Shown: positions 47,991 to 60,002 of the stretch, one piece after another
Numbering within the stretch: the stretch's first letter is position 1
Layout of the letters: each line of letters starts with the position of its first letter
NCBI RefSeq assembly: GCF_029320955.1
Contig: NZ_CP119757.1
Location: 1,984,001-2,048,000, forward strand
Source: Flavobacterium sp. YJ01
GTDB taxonomy: Bacteria > Bacteroidota > Bacteroidia > Flavobacteriales > Flavobacteriaceae
Length of the DNA: 64,000 bases
Reading direction: 5' to 3'
Translations under genes and position numbers: made by a program
The notes under the pieces: model-generated
The model's input: only the letters and a program-made list of their open reading frames with translations
The model's database searches: none
Told to the model about the DNA's origin: nothing

Positions 47991-48053
47991 ATTTAATAAA
48001 ACTTTTGCCATGATTTTTATCATTCCTTTTGGCTAATGTGAACAATAATTTTG
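47991..48053 (+). promoter_or_regulatory. FNR/CRP-type promoter of the first yceI gene
   Basis: Palindrome ATGATTTTTATCAT (48010-48023; half-sites TGAT/ATCA, the core of the FNR-class site) with a perfect -7 element TAATTTTG at 48046-48053. The palindrome centre lies 36.5 bases before the end of the -7 element, near -42 from the expected start, which is class II activator geometry. Shares 29 of 33 bases (47991-48023) with the second yceI promoter. Confidence 0.7.
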
Positions 48054-48126
48054 ATCAAAGAAACCAAGGTTAGTTCTCAACCACTATCGAACTCACCTGA
48101 TTAAAATTAACCTATACATAATCAAG

Positions 48127-48687
48127 ATGAAAACAATTAAATCAATCCTATTAACGGTAATCTTTACAACCGCTTCATTACAAATAAATGCACAAAGAAC
48201 TTACAATGTAACTGCAAATTCGACATTTGAAGTTGCAGGAACTTCTACCGTACACGATTGGGTAATGAAATCTACAGAAGGAACCGGAACAGCCAACTTA
48301 ACCATCAAAGATTCTAAGCTGGTAGGAATTAACAGCTTAAACATATCATTATTAGCCGAAAGTTTAAAAAGCTACAAAACCAGTATGGATAAAGTAGCGT
48401 ATGAAGCTCTTGACACTGAAAATCATCAAACTATTGAATACACTTTAAAATCAGCAGTAAAAGCAGACGAAACAACTTGGAACTTAACTGGAGTTTATAC
48501 TATTGCTGGCGTAAGTAAAGAATTTGTAACTCAAGTAAGAATAACATTCTCTAATGGAACTTTGACTTTACAGGGTTCTAACCAAATCACGTTTGGCGAT
48601 TTTGAAATGACTCCTCCAAAAGCGGCACTTGGAGTTGTAAAAGCGGGCAAAGATTTAACAGTGATTTTCAATATCATTTTAAGCTAA
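48127..48687 (+). CDS. YceI family secreted protein (first copy)
   Basis: 186 residues with signal peptide (TTASLQINAQ end). The YceI lipocalin-like barrel pattern is clear: AGTSTVHDWVMKSTEGTGTANL, then MDKVAYEALDTENHQTIEYTL, WNLTGVYTIAGVSKEF and ITFGDFEMTPPKAALGVVKAG. YceI proteins are periplasmic and bind isoprenoid quinone-like or amphiphilic ligands. About 64% similar in pattern to the next gene, which has the same promoter architecture. Likely transcribed alone, since 303 bases and a second promoter follow. Confidence 0.92.
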   Translation: MKTIKSILLTVIFTTASLQINAQRTYNVTANSTFEVAGTSTVHDWVMKSTEGTGTANLTIKDSKLVGINSLNISLLAESLKSYKTSMDKVAYEALDTENHQTIEYTLKSAVKADETTWNLTGVYTIAGVSKEFVTQVRITFSNGTLTLQGSNQITFGDFEMTPPKAALGVVKAGKDLTVIFNIILS

Positions 48688-48844
48688 AAAGAATCAATTC
48701 TAATGTTAAAATAAATACACTTTTTAAGTTTTTATTTTCTCTAACTAAATGTTAAAAACTAACAATTTAATAAAATTCGACACCGCTTTTTGTCTTAGTG
48801 ATCGGTTTTACAAAAAATGAAAACGTTGTAGTTATTAAATACCT

Positions 48845-48907
48845 ATTTAATAAAATTTTAACAATGATTTTTATCATGTCTTGAATTGATATATAGAAGG
48901 ATCTTTG
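48845..48907 (+). promoter_or_regulatory. FNR/CRP-type promoter of the second yceI operon
   Basis: Same palindrome ATGATTTTTATCAT (48864-48877) inside the same 33-base block, and a near-consensus -7 element GATCTTTG (48900-48907; first base deviates) at exactly the same 36.5-base spacing as in the first promoter. The remaining part of the 303-base gap holds AT-rich DNA only. Confidence 0.65.
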
Positions 48908-48990: not shown

Positions 48991-49557
48991 ATGAAAACAA
49001 ATACCTTAAAATTTTTAGCCGTTGTTACTGCATTTTTAGGAATTACAACAATTGCTACAGCACAAAAATCTTACGCTTTAGACAAATCTACTTTCTCAGT
49101 CGCTGGAACCTCAACACTTCATGACTGGGAAATGAAGTCGGCTTCTGGAACTGGAACTGCTTCACTTAATATCGCTAACGGAAAACTAACAGATATCGAA
49201 GCATTAACAATAAATCTTCCTGCTGAAACTGTAAAAAGCGAGAAAAAGAGCATGGATAAAGTAGCTTATGAAACTTTAAAAACTGATAAAAACAAAAATA
49301 TCAAATACGTTCTAAAATCTGCTGAAAAAGTAAACGAAACAACTTGGGAACTTACAGGAACTTATACCATTGCTGGAGTTAGCAAAGTATACAAAACGAC
49401 TGTAAAAACAGCTGTTACAAAAGATGGTTTAAATCTGCAAGGATCAAACAAAATCACTTTTACAGATTTCGGAATGAAATCGCCAACTGCAATGCTTGGC
49501 ACCATTAAAACAGGACAAGACCTAACCATAAAATTTAATTTAAACTTTAATTTATAA
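48991..49557 (+). CDS. YceI family secreted protein (second copy)
   Basis: 188 residues with signal peptide (FLGITTIATAQ end). Same barrel motifs as the first copy: VAGTSTLHDWEMKSASGTGTA, MDKVAYETLKTDKNKNIKYVL, WELTGTYTIAGVSKVYKT, ITFTDFGMKSPTAMLGTIKTG. It is the first gene of an operon with the beta-barrel protein, which starts only 5 bases after its stop. Confidence 0.93.
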   Translation: MKTNTLKFLAVVTAFLGITTIATAQKSYALDKSTFSVAGTSTLHDWEMKSASGTGTASLNIANGKLTDIEALTINLPAETVKSEKKSMDKVAYETLKTDKNKNIKYVLKSAEKVNETTWELTGTYTIAGVSKVYKTTVKTAVTKDGLNLQGSNKITFTDFGMKSPTAMLGTIKTGQDLTIKFNLNFNL

Positions 49558-49562
49558 TTGCC

Positions 49563-51014
49563 ATGAAGAAGATTTATATCCTATTTATTACATTAATAAG
49601 TACGTTTGCTGTTGAGGCACAAGTTAGTTTTGGAAACATGCAAAACCAAATTTCTAGAGGAAAAGATGGTATCAACGTTTTCGACGTACAAAAAGACAAC
49701 AGAGAATTTAAAGGTCTTAGCATTGACTTTGGTGGGGCTTTCAATATGGATTTTCAAGCAACAAATTCATTCAACGACCAGCCTGCTAGTTCTACTACTA
49801 TCACTACAACACCTACCGGGACTACAACTAGAACAATTACAGGATATCGTTTAATGAATACTGAAAACAATTTTACGCTACCTGCTGCAGATATGTACAT
49901 TGGTGCTCAATTGTTTGACGGAGTAAGAGTAAATTTAGATGTTTATTTAGCGTCAAGACACCACAATGATTCTTATGTAAAAGGTGGCTACTTACAAATT
50001 GACAAGTTAGACTTCATCAAAAAAGATTTCTTGGCTGATGTAATGAAATATGCTACAATTAAAATTGGACAAATGGAGAACAATTTTGGTGATGCTCACT
50101 TTAGAGGTTCTGATAATGGTAACACAATCAAAAATGCATTTGTTGGAAACAATATTATGTATTCTTTCTCTACAGAAATGGGTATGGAGGTTTACTACAA
50201 CAGAAGCGGATGGGTAAGTATGTTAGGTGTTACAAATGGTAATTTAAATCAAAGTAATGAAGAAGTTTTTTACCCTTCTGGTCCGAACGCAAATACAACA
50301 CATAGCCCTTCAATCTTAGCTAAATTTGGTTATGACAAACAGATTAATGAAGATTTAAGAATAAGATTAACTGGTTCTTACTACCATAATGCAAATCTTG
50401 GTAACGCAAACATCTATTCTGCAAATAGATCAGGATTTGGTTATTGGGGTATCTTGAATAATAATGCTTATAAAAATACTATTACTAAGACCGATGCTAA
50501 CGGAAATGTTATTTCTACAACTACTACTGATGTTGCTACTAGTTTTAGCAAAACATCTACTCCAGAGGCAACGTTCAATCCTAATTTCAAAAATTGGGCT
50601 ACAACATACATGATTAACCCTTTTATAAAATATAAAGGACTTGAATTCTTCGGAACGATCGAATTAGCTTCAGGAGGAGACAAAGCAGGAACTGATGACA
50701 AACGTACTGCTAATCAATATGCTTCAGAGCTTATTTACAGATTTGGAAAAACAGAACAATTCTATCTAGGAGGAAAATACAATACAGTATCTGGAAAATT
50801 ATCTAATGCCGATGCTAAAGAAGTTACTGTAGATAAATTTGAAGCAAGTGCTGGTTGGTTTATGACTAAAAACATCTTAGCTAAATTAAACTACGTTAAT
50901 CAAAACTATAAAAACTACTCACAATTTACAGGAGATCCTGCTACTGGAAATGTAAATAACTTTTATGGTGGTAAGTTTAATGGTTTAGTATTCGAAGCAG
51001 TAATTGCATTCTAA
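49563..51014 (+). CDS. outer-membrane beta-barrel (porin-like) protein
   Basis: 483 residues with signal peptide (LFITLISTFAVEAQ). The body alternates short amphipathic strands with Gly/Asn/Thr loops and ends in AGLVFEAVIAF-like terminal aromatic, as outer-membrane barrels do (KFNGLVFEAVIAF). Segments YLASRHHNDSYVKGGYLQID and IKIGQMENNFGDAHFRGSDNG recall phosphate-selective or anion porins. Co-transcribed between two YceI-type genes (gaps 5 and 11 bases). Substrate unknown; the context suggests transport of a ligand bound by the YceI proteins. Confidence 0.8.
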   Translation: MKKIYILFITLISTFAVEAQVSFGNMQNQISRGKDGINVFDVQKDNREFKGLSIDFGGAFNMDFQATNSFNDQPASSTTITTTPTGTTTRTITGYRLMNTENNFTLPAADMYIGAQLFDGVRVNLDVYLASRHHNDSYVKGGYLQIDKLDFIKKDFLADVMKYATIKIGQMENNFGDAHFRGSDNGNTIKNAFVGNNIMYSFSTEMGMEVYYNRSGWVSMLGVTNGNLNQSNEEVFYPSGPNANTTHSPSILAKFGYDKQINEDLRIRLTGSYYHNANLGNANIYSANRSGFGYWGILNNNAYKNTITKTDANGNVISTTTTDVATSFSKTSTPEATFNPNFKNWATTYMINPFIKYKGLEFFGTIELASGGDKAGTDDKRTANQYASELIYRFGKTEQFYLGGKYNTVSGKLSNADAKEVTVDKFEASAGWFMTKNILAKLNYVNQNYKNYSQFTGDPATGNVNNFYGGKFNGLVFEAVIAF

Positions 51015-51025
51015 TATATAAAAAA

Positions 51026-51577
51026 ATGAAAACGAGATTTTCAATATTAATTATGGGTTTAGCAATTTTCTTTTTCTTAGGAAGTGCTAAACCCACTTTT
51101 TTACCAGAAGATACGGCTGTGGTAATAAATAAAATTAAAATAGAAATCACAGGACTATCTACAGTTGGCAAGTACAATTGCTCTAACACCTTTAATATAA
51201 AGGACACCGTTTATGTAAATTGTGCTAAAAAGAACACTTTCAATACCGATATTAAAATGTCAAATTTCGATTGTGGCAACAAAATAATGACAAAGGATTT
51301 GCAAGGAACTGTAAAGGTGAAAAAATTTCCAAACAGCACAGTAAGTATTACTGATATTAAAAAAGATGGTAAAAATTACAAATGCACGCTAAACTTTTAC
51401 ATTACCGACAAAACACTGAAATACAAAGATTTCATCTTATACAATTCCGACGATAAGATTCAAGGAACATTAAATTTAAAATTCTCTGATATCGAATTAG
51501 AAGCTCCGGTAAAAATGGCTGGTCTTATAAAAGTAAAAGATGATATTATTATAAATTTCAGTTTATATAAAAATTAA
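51026..51577 (+). CDS. divergent YceI-like secreted protein with four cysteines
   Basis: 183 residues with an N-terminal hydrophobic signal (LIMGLAIFFFLGSA). The strand order and the ending (IQGTLNLKFSDIELEAPVKMAGLIKVKDDIIINFSL) align with the YceI ending of the two neighbours, so it is a remote YceI relative. Unlike them it has cysteines in KYNCSN, VNCAKK, NFDCGN and YKCTLN, suggesting disulfides or metal/haem-ligand binding. Last gene of the operon, 11 bases after the barrel gene. Confidence 0.75.
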   Translation: MKTRFSILIMGLAIFFFLGSAKPTFLPEDTAVVINKIKIEITGLSTVGKYNCSNTFNIKDTVYVNCAKKNTFNTDIKMSNFDCGNKIMTKDLQGTVKVKKFPNSTVSITDIKKDGKNYKCTLNFYITDKTLKYKDFILYNSDDKIQGTLNLKFSDIELEAPVKMAGLIKVKDDIIINFSLYKN

Positions 51578-56517: not shown

Positions 56518-57024
56518 TTAATATTTTAACACTTCTTTCCTTGAAGATTGTGTAAAAAGAACACTCTTTTTGGTATCAAATGCTGAAATATGTGTAATGT
56601 TTTGCTGTTCTGAGTTCCAATCCACTAAGATTGTATTCGAAATTTCTAATGTTTTAAACTTATCAATATCCTTAATTCTAGAATAACAAACCAGAACATC
56701 GCCCGCTTCGACTTCTTTAGATAAAAAAGTTATTTTTTTTGATTGACCATTTACTTTTATCAAAAAGTTTTCTGAAAGATATTTTTCGAATAAATCGAGA
56801 TCTGCCTGTGTTTCTTTTTCGGTACCTACAAAAGTTTTTTTATGGTACTTTTTTTCCATCGCATTATTCAAATCATCAATAAAAATGCGCGAAGTTATCT
56901 GAATCATCTTTTTTTCGGCAACATAATTTACCTGAAAAACTCCGACATAAAATTTGTGAAAAGTAAATGCGGAAGACAATACAAATACAACCGCAAGAAA
57001 ACAGTAAACTAATTTATTTTTCAT
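56518..57024 (-). CDS. DUF6702-type secreted protein
   Basis: 168 residues, signal peptide (FLAVVFVLSSAFTFHKF). The body (HKFYVGVFQVNYVAEKKMIQITSR and DLNNAMEKKYHKK) matches, as I recall, DUF6702, a small Bacteroidota family often encoded next to M1 peptidases. No catalytic residues known. Overlaps the preceding gene by four bases and precedes the peptidase gene, so it is likely functionally tied to it. Confidence 0.75.
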   Translation of the reverse strand: MKNKLVYCFLAVVFVLSSAFTFHKFYVGVFQVNYVAEKKMIQITSRIFIDDLNNAMEKKYHKKTFVGTEKETQADLDLFEKYLSENFLIKVNGQSKKITFLSKEVEAGDVLVCYSRIKDIDKFKTLEISNTILVDWNSEQQNITHISAFDTKKSVLFTQSSRKEVLKY

Positions 57025-57776
57025 TTTTGAGCAGAAGCCGCTTTCTTAAATTCTTTATTCTTGTTAATCATGAAATCTATCAATTGGAATTTCTGATCTG
57101 GATCAACCATTTGTTTTGAGTGCGGATCGTTGGAACAATACATTAAAAACAATTCGATTTCATCTTCTTTAAGACTTAATGTATTGGTATAAAAGTCTTT
57201 TGTAAAATTATCTTTCGCATATTCCACAAAAGCGATATCCGTTATTTCTTCGTCTTTTATGTCATCTTTTTTCTTAAGAAGTTTTTTGACATCTTTAAAA
57301 ATACGAACAAAATCCATTCCGTATTTTATCGTTTGATCTGACATCATCGCATTGTTTTTTGCTGTAGATTGCTTATCATCTTCAAACTGCATATCTACAA
57401 TACCTTGCGAACCGCCTCCAAGCGCTTTGACTTTTAATTCTTTATGAACAACAACTTCTTTAAGCTGATTATTTACTAAATCTAATTTTACCTTAAAAAG
57501 CACCTCAGCACAATCTTTCTCTGTTAAAATGATTTTTTTTGATTGAAATGCCAAACCAGAAAACAACAATGTATCTTTTGGCCGCGCCATAATATCAAAT
57601 AAACCACCTGAACCAATAAATGTTCTGACATTGGCATTAATATTCATTACGTAACCACTTTCAATGGCTAAAAAGTCATTTAAAACTTGACCATGTAATG
57701 GCTTCCTTGAACCGTTTTGCCCTAATACAATTTGACAAAATAAGCAGACAACGAGTATTCCTAATTTATTTTTCAT
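57021..57776 (-). CDS. CarboxypepD_reg-like secreted protein, divergent paralog 4
   Basis: 251 residues with signal peptide (GILVVCLFCQIVLGQ). The N-terminal beta-sandwich resembles carboxypeptidase regulatory domains (HGQVLNDFLAIESGYVMNINANV, then LLFSGLAFQSKKI). Unlike the three upstream paralogs it lacks the GQKKYTxAER motif and has a Gly-rich joint (GGGSQGIVDMQF) and a C-terminal helical part ending FMINKNKEFKKA. Overlaps both neighbours in the same direction. Function unknown. Confidence 0.78.
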   Translation of the reverse strand: MKNKLGILVVCLFCQIVLGQNGSRKPLHGQVLNDFLAIESGYVMNINANVRTFIGSGGLFDIMARPKDTLLFSGLAFQSKKIILTEKDCAEVLFKVKLDLVNNQLKEVVVHKELKVKALGGGSQGIVDMQFEDDKQSTAKNNAMMSDQTIKYGMDFVRIFKDVKKLLKKKDDIKDEEITDIAFVEYAKDNFTKDFYTNTLSLKEDEIELFLMYCSNDPHSKQMVDPDQKFQLIDFMINKNKEFKKAASAQK

Positions 57777-58494
57777 TTTCGAGAATTGTTAGATATTTTC
57801 TTGCTAGATCTGTGATTAAAAACATACTCATTGTTTTGTTTTTACTATTCAAAGATACAGCAAAATCGGCATCTTCCACACAAAATAATTGAAATCCTTT
57901 TATATCAGCAACCGGAATCTTCAATCTATCCGTGTAATAATTCTCTTCAAAAAGATATTCTAGTTTTCTAAAAAGCGCTTCTTTTTTCTCCACATTTACT
58001 TCTTTTTTCAGCATAGTAGTTCGACCTGAAATGGCATTCAAGAGTTTATCTACCGAAGTAGAAGTTGCCGTATAAACTTTTCTTTCTGCTGGAGTATATT
58101 TTTTTTGTCCGTATGGAATTATTCCTAAATTTTCAGCTGTGATATTTGCATTTTCATTAACTACAACCTCTTTCAATTCGACTTCTTTCGCTGTCATTTT
58201 AACAATTAAAATATTAGGATAAAAATCGCCAGATACAACTCTATGTTTCAATGGTTCAAGGTTTACAGCAGAAAAAACCAAAACATCTCCTTCTTTAACC
58301 TGCATCGAAAAATTACCTTCAGAATCTGAAACGGTTGCTACTTGAGTCGCGTTATTGATAATATTAATTCCTTCAATTGGTGTAGAATGTTCTACTACTT
58401 TCCCAACCAGCTGTTTTAAATCATTTTTTTGTCCAAAACAGATTTGAACTAATAAAACCAGAACAATTATAGATATGTTTTTACTTATTTTCAC
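57766..58494 (-). CDS. CarboxypepD_reg-like secreted protein, paralog 3
   Basis: 242 residues with signal peptide (IIVLVLLVQICFGQ). Beta-sandwich N-domain (LVGKVVEHSTPIEGINIINN, DSEGNFSMQVKEGDVLVFSA), then the family motif IPYGQKKYTPAERKVYTAT at about residues 122-143, followed by a C-terminal ~95-residue helical domain (EKKEALFRKLEYLFEENYYTDRLKIP). The paralogs share this layout. Overlaps the previous gene by 14 and the next by 11 bases. Confidence 0.82.
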   Translation of the reverse strand: MKISKNISIIVLVLLVQICFGQKNDLKQLVGKVVEHSTPIEGINIINNATQVATVSDSEGNFSMQVKEGDVLVFSAVNLEPLKHRVVSGDFYPNILIVKMTAKEVELKEVVVNENANITAENLGIIPYGQKKYTPAERKVYTATSTSVDKLLNAISGRTTMLKKEVNVEKKEALFRKLEYLFEENYYTDRLKIPVADIKGFQLFCVEDADFAVSLNSKNKTMSMFLITDLARKYLTILENEK

Positions 58495-59254
58495 TAGAAA
58501 TTATTTCTTTATACTTGACAGCCAATTCTCCTAGAAGAAACTCCGTCGAAGTTTTATTTTTTGAATTTAAAACCGTGCAAAATTCGTTGTTTTCAATCAC
58601 AAAAAGTTTAAATTCATTTACATTTTCTTTGGCTATTTGCAACTTTTGAACAAAGTAGACATCATCAAACAAATAACCTAATTTGAGAAGATTTTTTTCC
58701 TTTTTCTCAATCTCTACATTTGCTTTTAATCGTTTTGTTCTTCCATTAATTTTATTGATTAACGGATCAAGCTGCATCGATCCTCCTAAAAGACCTAATA
58801 ACATTATCGGTTTAAAATCTCCCGCTGTCGCTAATTGCCTTTCTGCCTGCGAATATTTTTTCTGTCCTTTAGGAATTATACCTAAATTTTCAGCCGTTAT
58901 AGCAGTATTTTCGTCAACAATAACTTCTTGCAATTCAAGCTCTTTTATTGTCATTTCGATTAACAATTCTGAAGATCTTAAATCATCTTTTGTAATTCGT
59001 CTTTTTAAAGGATTCAAATTAACAGCTGAAAAAACCAAAATTTCATTTTCTTTTACTGAAATTGAAAAATCACCTTGCGAATCTGAAATCGTAGATATTT
59101 GCGAATTATTATTGATTACATTAACCCCTTCAACTGGTTTAGAACTTAAAACTATCTTTCCATGCAACAGCTTTAATTCTGTCTGTCCAAAACCAGTTTG
59201 AACAAAAAACAGAAAAAAAACAGCAGATATGGCTTTACTTGTTTCCAACGGCAA
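58481..59254 (-). CDS. CarboxypepD_reg-like secreted protein, paralog 2
   Basis: 257 residues with signal peptide (AVFFLFFVQTGFGQ). Same domains: LHGKIVLSSKPVEGVNVINNN, DSQGDFSISVKENEILVFSA, IPKGQKKYSQAERQLATA, then a Gly-rich spacer (MLLGLLGGSMQLDPLINKI) and helical C-domain ending STEFLLGELAVKYKEII. Almost identical ending with paralog 1 (59235-60002). Overlaps it by 20 bases. Confidence 0.82.
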   Translation of the reverse strand: MPLETSKAISAVFFLFFVQTGFGQTELKLLHGKIVLSSKPVEGVNVINNNSQISTISDSQGDFSISVKENEILVFSAVNLNPLKRRITKDDLRSSELLIEMTIKELELQEVIVDENTAITAENLGIIPKGQKKYSQAERQLATAGDFKPIMLLGLLGGSMQLDPLINKINGRTKRLKANVEIEKKEKNLLKLGYLFDDVYFVQKLQIAKENVNEFKLFVIENNEFCTVLNSKNKTSTEFLLGELAVKYKEIISSENK

Positions 59255-60002
59255 GCATTTCTTTATATTTTACCGCTAACTCGCCCAACAAGAATTCTGT
59301 CGAAGTTTTATTTTTCGAATTTAAAATTACTGTAAACTTGTCGTTTTCTATTGCATAATATTCAAATCCTTTTACATATTCCGCAGGAATTTTTAATCTG
59401 TCAATAAAATGTTCCAAACTAAACATATTTTCTAAAAGCCTCATTAAAAACTCTTTTTTCTCTACAGCCACTTCCTTTTTTAACATCGCTGTTCTTCCTG
59501 AGAAAAAATTAAGCAAAGGATCAGCAGAAATAGATCCACCCACCATTCCGCCTCCATTTGCAGTTGCATTCAATGCCGTTGCCGTATGCAATTTTCTTTC
59601 TGCTTCAGTATATTTTTTCTGACCATAAGGTATTACACCTAAACTTTCTGCACTGATATTATCATATTTTTTAATAACAACTTCTTGCAGCTGATACATG
59701 ACCATATTTAGTTTTACAGCAAAATTAAGATTCGAAAAATCTTCTGATTTTAATAAAACTCTTTTTTCTTTATAACTTATAGAAGAAAAAACCAAAACAT
59801 CATCTGGTTTTGCTAAAATCGAAAAAGATCCAGAAGTATCTGTTGTAACAGTTTCTTCTGTCTGAGCATTAATTACATAGATACCGCTCAAATCTGAAGT
59901 ATTTGATTCGACTTTTCCATTTATAACAGATCGATCTTGTACTTGAGAGATACAAGTTTGCGCCACTAAAACAACTAAAAAGAAAGTAATTTTCTGAATC
60001 AA
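59235..60002 (-). CDS. CarboxypepD_reg-like secreted protein, paralog 1
   Basis: 255 residues with signal peptide (ITFFLVVLVAQTCIS). Domains as in the paralogs: INGKVESNTSDLSGIYVINA, DTSGSFSILAKPDDVLVFSS, IPYGQKKYTEAERKLHTATA and a Gly-rich NGGGMVGGSISADPLLNFFSG hinge before the C-domain (LMRLLENMFSLEHFIDRLKIP). First gene of the five- or six-gene minus-strand operon ending at the M1 peptidase. Upstream, 60003-60165 is AT-rich with no clear site. Confidence 0.82.
   Translation of the reverse strand: MIQKITFFLVVLVAQTCISQVQDRSVINGKVESNTSDLSGIYVINAQTEETVTTDTSGSFSILAKPDDVLVFSSISYKEKRVLLKSEDFSNLNFAVKLNMVMYQLQEVVIKKYDNISAESLGVIPYGQKKYTEAERKLHTATALNATANGGGMVGGSISADPLLNFFSGRTAMLKKEVAVEKKEFLMRLLENMFSLEHFIDRLKIPAEYVKGFEYYAIENDKFTVILNSKNKTSTEFLLGELAVKYKEMLAVGNK

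Follow-up and report, generated by a model that had tools for sequence, protein, structure and literature searches.

Twin predicted Crp/Fnr-type promoters of a Flavobacterium yceI-porin operon share a rigid geometry with genes of micro-oxic respiration and denitrification

The stretch of the Flavobacterium sp. YJ01 genome analyzed here (64,000 nucleotides, hereafter the window) carries on its plus strand two neighboring genes for secreted YceI-domain proteins, yceI-1 (48127..48687; 186 aa) and yceI-2 (48991..49557; 188 aa), whose products are 53% identical. Five nucleotides after yceI-2 begins the gene for a putative outer-membrane porin of 483 aa (49563..51014), an order that is conserved, and the unit ends with yceI-3 (51026..51577), encoding a divergent YceI-domain protein of 183 aa. 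All three YceI proteins exceed the PF04264 gathering score of 23.7 (37.6, 40.3, and 27.7 bits for yceI-1, yceI-2, and yceI-3, respectively). The 483-aa protein has no Pfam or NCBIfam match in a profile search, some of its relatives are named Porin by their sources, and its AlphaFold2 model is too poor to use (mean pLDDT 39.5). A YceI protein of the window matches polyisoprenoid-binding structures (5w2x and relatives) weakly over residues 68-179 (E 6.6e-4), and one may guess that the YceI module handles quinones or isoprenoids when oxygen is low. Elsewhere in the window (57021-60002, minus strand), four overlapping neighboring genes encode proteins that look related by eye and are perhaps tandem paralogs.

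Each of the two yceI genes is preceded by the same 14-base palindrome, ATGATTTTTATCAT, a predicted Crp/Fnr-type operator at 48010..48023 (+) for yceI-1 and at 48864..48877 (+) for yceI-2, exactly where the preliminary description had placed them. The 33-base block with 29 identities reported there was confirmed by a manual count for 47991-48023 against 48845-48877, and the similarity extends further, to a 38-nt repeat (84%) shared by the upstream regions. Downstream of the operators lie the predicted -7 elements, described earlier as being of the TAnnTTTG type; this holds for TAATTTTG of yceI-1 (48046..48053, +), whereas GATCTTTG of yceI-2 (48900..48907, +) departs from the consensus at its first base. 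Upstream of the operators are A/T-rich blocks, TTTAATAAAACTTTT directly 5' of that of yceI-1 (47992..48006, +; about -66 to -52) and TTTAATAAAATTTT 5' of that of yceI-2 (48846..48859, +). Further upstream of the yceI-2 operator, several relatives retain AAAACGTTGTAGTTATTAAATAC (48820-48842), which coincides in part with one arm of an imperfect inverted repeat.

Class II activators, as known from FNR and CRP, are centered at -41.5. On the F. psychrophilum transcription-start map, TAnnTTTG occupies -12 to -5 (PMC9723704). The -7 element had been said to end 36.5 bases from the palindrome center, and this distance is exact at both promoters; with the G of the -7 box at -5, as on that map, both palindromes would be centered at -41.5, as in a Crp/Fnr class II promoter. 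The same placement predicts transcription starts at 48058 and 48912, each one base upstream of the position proposed originally (48059 and 48913). The predicted +1 base is A in 96% of 79 yceI promoters with <80% mutual identity; since these were selected for having the site, their core and -7 box are conserved by construction but the +1 base is not, and an A five bases after the -7 G fits a start at that position. The 23-nt spacer between core and box mostly varies in sequence among these promoters.

Within the window the exact ATGATTTTTATCAT occurs only at the two yceI sites, and in the entire genome, a single contig of 5,483,844 bases, only three times, the third copy lying upstream of the copper nitrite reductase gene nirK. 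A broader search for TGATN4ATCA followed by TANNTTTG at any gap of 8-38 nt gave 13 matches, seven at gap 23 and three at gap 24, versus one match for a reversed control pattern in the same scan; the concentration of 10 of the 13 in two of 31 gaps has a binomial probability of about 3e-10. The genome-wide palindrome scan proposed in the preliminary description did not refute it, with matches clustering at gaps 23-24 rather than being scattered without promoter spacing. Relaxing the box to NANNTTTG at gaps 21-25 raised the number to 18 (control, 2). All 11 exact gap-23 matches sit 24-213 nt 5' of a gene on the same strand, a later in-frame ATG being taken for the genes at two loci (L044 and L048). 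Allowing one mismatch at gap 23 adds 50 sites, for a total of 61 against 15 in the control, so a good part of these one-mismatch sites may be due to chance.

The genes downstream of the gap-23 sites, as identified by profile search, include several with respiratory functions: a NarK-like transporter (below the curated cut-off, its gene truncated at the end of the locus), HemN, a cytochrome c with a Sec-type NosZ after it (below cut-off and likewise truncated), CcoN, and NirK. The others are yceI-1, yceI-2, a polyprenyl synthetase, UspA, a small barrel-like protein that falls just short of its cut-off, and a CBS-type protein for which the matches are only partial. Judged by these annotations, the set looks like a regulon of micro-oxic respiration and denitrification plus a few envelope and other genes. 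The site also recurs 5' of ccoN at gap 23 in all 19 fetched neighborhoods that include this gene; gaps of 22-25 were searched, and the core is exact in eight and relaxed in 11. Expression of ccoN, hemN, and nirK is expected to need activation at low oxygen. Genes for cbb3 oxidase and heme synthesis go up in F. psychrophilum under oxygen limitation, according to the accessible part of the source (PMC9723704). One of the gap-23 loci (L044, 2639653-2639695) has an operator of the same type with the -7 box TATCTTTG between the polyprenyl synthetase gene and a fourth YceI gene, whose 173-aa product scores well and has no evident signal peptide. The site beside these two genes is a second hint at a connection with isoprenoid lipids.

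Across 150 Flavobacterium genomes, which are related and so not independent counts, the exact pattern occurs 486 times (control, 6), with at least one match in 132 genomes. Relatives of yceI-2 are present in 50 of the 150. Among 48 close yceI genes (at least 50% identity, the two of the window included), 42 have the exact core and four a core with one mismatch, all at gap 23, and the site is absent from two (yceI-2 of G091, and G046). A set of 79 named Flavobacterium loci gave the same picture: 57 exact, 14 with one mismatch, and eight without a site, all 71 positives having gap 23 with gaps of 15-31 allowed. The eight lack it at the tested gene and include L188, where the upstream sequence covers just 218 nt, and the nearest named relative (L126), whose yceI-2 is 96% identical; in L126 the site is missing at yceI-2 and present at yceI-1. 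The genes are most commonly arranged as rlmN / yceI-1 / yceI-2 / porin / yceI-3 (46 of 90 loci); in the remaining orders, yceI-1 is missing, stands alone, or follows yceI-3. From this survey the twin promoters are best read as the product of a tandem duplication in which the first yceI would have been copied together with its promoter.

More distant yceI-porin operons likewise tend to carry the site. A relaxed form, TGA[TC]N4[AG]TCA, was found at gap 23 (22-24 allowed) in 13 of 15, versus none in 20 repeats with shuffled sequences, and was not found at L093 and L100, where the porins are more divergent (39% identity). Nor was a site found at seven distant loci with a YceI hit where the fetched stretch holds no porin (L108-L114); four of the seven gave no tblastn match either. 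YceI alone is not a simple predictor of the site, but close yceI-1 genes without a porin do carry it: one such gene (L107) has the site, as do loci with only yceI-1, such as L196 and L198-L204 (exact) and L197 (one mismatch).

Of 299 genomes of the family, 78 have the porin. We analyzed the best 30 of these 78 loci, which are not a random sample and comprise that of YJ01 and 29 from 28 other genera. A YceI gene precedes the porin in all 30. Among the 29 operons of other genera, 19 have a relaxed core followed by [TG]A..TTTG and 23 by NA..TTTG, all at gap 23; with the YJ01 locus included the numbers are 20/30 and 24/30. In shuffled sequences, the stricter [TG]A..TTTG test was positive in a mean of 0.01 of 30 regions (maximum 1). 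All 24 matching loci keep gap 23 although gaps of 15-31 were allowed, and six loci have no match at any gap in this range. Together with the 71 of 71 named Flavobacterium loci, this points to selection for a fixed spacing between operator and -7 box. In a sample of the phylum, the exact gap-23 pattern occurs in 85 of 296 genomes, including all 18 of the genus (YJ01 among them) and all 12 from the rest of the family; the control pattern turned up twice.

A third element of these promoters appears to be more specific. The A/T-rich block TTTAATAAAA(C/T)TTTT, at about -66 to -52, is kept across yceI promoters and is weak in 12 other promoters of the class in the YJ01 genome, where the best alignments reach 7-10 of 14 matches versus 13 and 14 at the two yceI promoters. 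The block may be a contact for the alpha subunit of RNA polymerase or the site of a second regulator.

Seven proteins encoded in the YJ01 genome exceed the cut-off for the Crp HTH domain. One of these, L049 (921405-922085), is an FNR-like protein whose gene lies beside the cbb3 oxidase genes and starts 2.6 kb from the ccoN operator; another, L050 (206858-207532), is a paralog with 76% identity. L049 exceeds the cut-offs for PF00027 (cNMP-like domain) and PF13545 (HTH), and its best NCBIfam match is Fnr (NF008365; residues 3-226 on 19-244), with 84.7 bits where the curated cut-off is 228. The [4Fe-4S] cluster of FNR is held by Cys20, Cys23, Cys29, and Cys122, and its recognition helix contains E209, S212, and R213. 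By the profile offset, C4, C7, and C106 of L049 align with Cys20, Cys23, and Cys122 and are cysteine in 21 of 21 aligned sequences, whereas the place of Cys29 (L049 position 13) is taken by Ser in 20 and Thr in one. Similarly, E191 and R195 of the recognition helix are kept but Ile194 replaces Ser212 in all 21. With three of the four cluster cysteines and Ile at the specificity-determining Ser, L049 is FNR-like but, by its curated score, fourth cysteine, and recognition helix, not FNR proper. C53, C132, and C193 are also invariant in the 21 sequences, so that another cluster ligand is possible.

The operators themselves differ from the classical FNR site at their outer bases. In 145 distinct exact sites, mostly from yceI promoters, the position flanking TGAT on the outside holds A in 137, C in seven, and T in one, and that flanking ATCA holds T in 127, G in 18, and A in none; a few of the genus matches listed do have A or C outside ATCA. 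An altered contact at the place of FNR Ser212 would fit this shift from TTGAT...ATCAA. The L049 type is found in 134 of the 150 genus genomes and in all 31 with a close yceI gene. Two L049-type matches (E <= 1e-30) occur only in YJ01 and G031 among the 134 positives. L049, or its paralog L050, is the most likely regulator of the yceI sites. Its presence tracks that of the sites imperfectly: 10 of the 16 genomes without the L049 type (E <= 1e-30) still have an exact match, and 12 of the 134 with it have none, the mean number of exact sites being 1.25 in the former group and 3.48 in the latter. In 11 of 20 fetched neighborhoods (L224-L227, L230, L233, L237-L240, and L243), a second operator of the same type lies just 5' of the FNR-like gene and points away from it, possibly controlling the neighboring divergent gene.

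The proposal in the preliminary description that a Crp/Fnr regulator activates both yceI units gains support from the gap-23 regulon, from conservation, and from the predicted -41.5 geometry, and that of redox or respiratory control from the sharing of sites with genes for micro-oxic respiration and denitrification. Because the same rigidly spaced site precedes these genes, a fall in oxygen very probably turns the yceI operon on. We consider it likely that L049 or L050, acting from the -41.5 sites, switches on yceI-1 and yceI-2-porin-yceI-3 together with the respiratory genes, the twin promoters having arisen by duplication. Under this model, each palindrome would be bound by a dimer of the Crp/Fnr family in the class II activator position, acting on a Bacteroidota-type sigma-A promoter with its TAnnTTTG -7 box. 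A fall in oxygen would render L049 (or L050) active, and the active regulator would turn on both yceI units alongside the cbb3 oxidase, hemN, the NarK-like transporter, nirK, and the nosZ unit. The second yceI promoter would stem from the copying of yceI in tandem with its promoter. The sequences show the geometry, the shared regulon, and the conservation, from which we infer that the regulator activates and does not repress, that oxygen is the signal, and which paralog binds. Literature searches turned up neither expression nor binding data on yceI for the Flavobacterium group.

Other readings of the same sites have to be weighed. They could be real Crp/Fnr operators at which yceI is activated by a regulator of the L054/L055 type (198 aa, lacking the N-terminal CxxC) that senses nitric oxide or another denitrification signal and not oxygen. 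The L054 gene is divergent from hemN, with the cytochrome c/nosZ operator some 7 kb away, the L055 gene stands just before another site, and genomes with regulators of this type carry more sites than those without (4.24 vs. 2.36). However, six of the 31 genomes with close yceI genes (G010, G030, G046, G094, G112, and G142) have a best L055 match of only 4.9e-19 to 7.9e-12, yet five of these six have an exact yceI site, and the L049 type, unlike the L055 type, is present in all 31. L055 as the sole regulator is weakened by the lack of a good match in those six genomes, and we regard this reading as unlikely.

Repression of yceI by a Crp/Fnr protein at these sites would parallel the enteric bacteria, where yceI goes down 3.1-, 5.0-, and 6.0-fold at low oxygen in three enterobacteria (PMC3349551) and where the E. 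coli gene is listed as a member of the FnrS regulon (PMC3792023). The E. coli effect is, however, attributed in part or more to a small RNA (PMC3792023) and not to an operator at -41.5, and the predicted Flavobacterium operator is clear of the -7 box with a spacing equal to that at ccoN, hemN, and nirK, so we judge repression improbable. Finally, the paralogy of yceI-1 and yceI-2 (53% identity) and the 38-nt repeat shared by their upstream regions might suggest that the twin sites are functionless leftovers of a tandem duplication combined with chance palindromes in A/T-rich DNA. Chance palindromes are ruled out by spacing and conservation, the relaxed core and -7 box recurring at the same gap in 23 of the 29 genomes that represent 28 other genera and almost never in shuffled sequences. 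Duplication leftovers are likewise ruled out because the site is kept where an operon has just one such yceI, both in distant relatives and in other genera; we give this last reading next to no credence.

Activation by an L049-type regulator at low oxygen would make this promoter class a low-oxygen regulon, amenable to testing, in a large group of bacteria from soil and water; we found no earlier description of one in the open-licence literature. It would also place the poorly understood YceI proteins and their partner porin in a respiratory program, with a predicted sign opposite to that in enterics, and the fixed geometry allows further regulon members to be found by pattern alone. More speculatively, and with low confidence, an FNR-like sensor with three cysteines, reading an operator code of its own (ATGAT-N4-ATCAT/G, rigidly centered at -41.5), could rule a family-wide low-oxygen regulon of the Flavobacteriaceae. 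In it, yceI-porin-yceI would be a dedicated envelope module that transports or shields isoprenoid or quinone lipids, or exports some lipophilic compound, at the shift to cbb3 respiration and denitrification, contrary to what enterics do, and the yceI-specific A/T block would boost expression via the alpha subunit of RNA polymerase or a second factor.

The enteric yceJ-yceI system resembles the one described here in having a YceI-domain protein with oxygen-related control (available parts of PMC3792023 and PMC3349551). It differs in that yceI goes down without oxygen, with the FnrS small RNA implicated in the text available, so that the predicted sign in Flavobacterium is reversed, and in that yceJ (cytochrome b561) stands beside yceI in the regulated sets, with no porin mentioned in those parts of the two sources (PMC3792023, PMC3349551). 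To the polyisoprenoid-binding YceI structures (5w2x and relatives), the window proteins have only marginal similarity.

Closer parallels are found among the Crp/Fnr regulons. Class II promoters of E. coli FNR have TTGAT-N4-ATCAA centered at -41.5, and the Flavobacterium sites share the TGAT-N4-ATCA core, the predicted -41.5 center, targets in low-oxygen metabolism and denitrification, and a candidate regulator of the Crp/Fnr family. They differ in having a TAnnTTTG -7 box in place of TATAAT and an outer base of A or C on the left and T or G on the right, and in the candidate regulator Ile stands where FNR has Ser212, and Ser or Thr where it has Cys29. The FnrL/FixK and DNR/NnrR-type regulons of the Pseudomonadota have cbb3 oxidase, hemN, nirK, nosZ, and nitrate transport among their targets, the same classes as in the gap-23 set, which differs from them in belonging to another phylum and another promoter class and in having a YceI-porin operon as a member. 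By these comparisons, the Flavobacterium system appears to work like a class II regulon of the FNR/FnrL type, though in a phylum whose promoter consensus differs.
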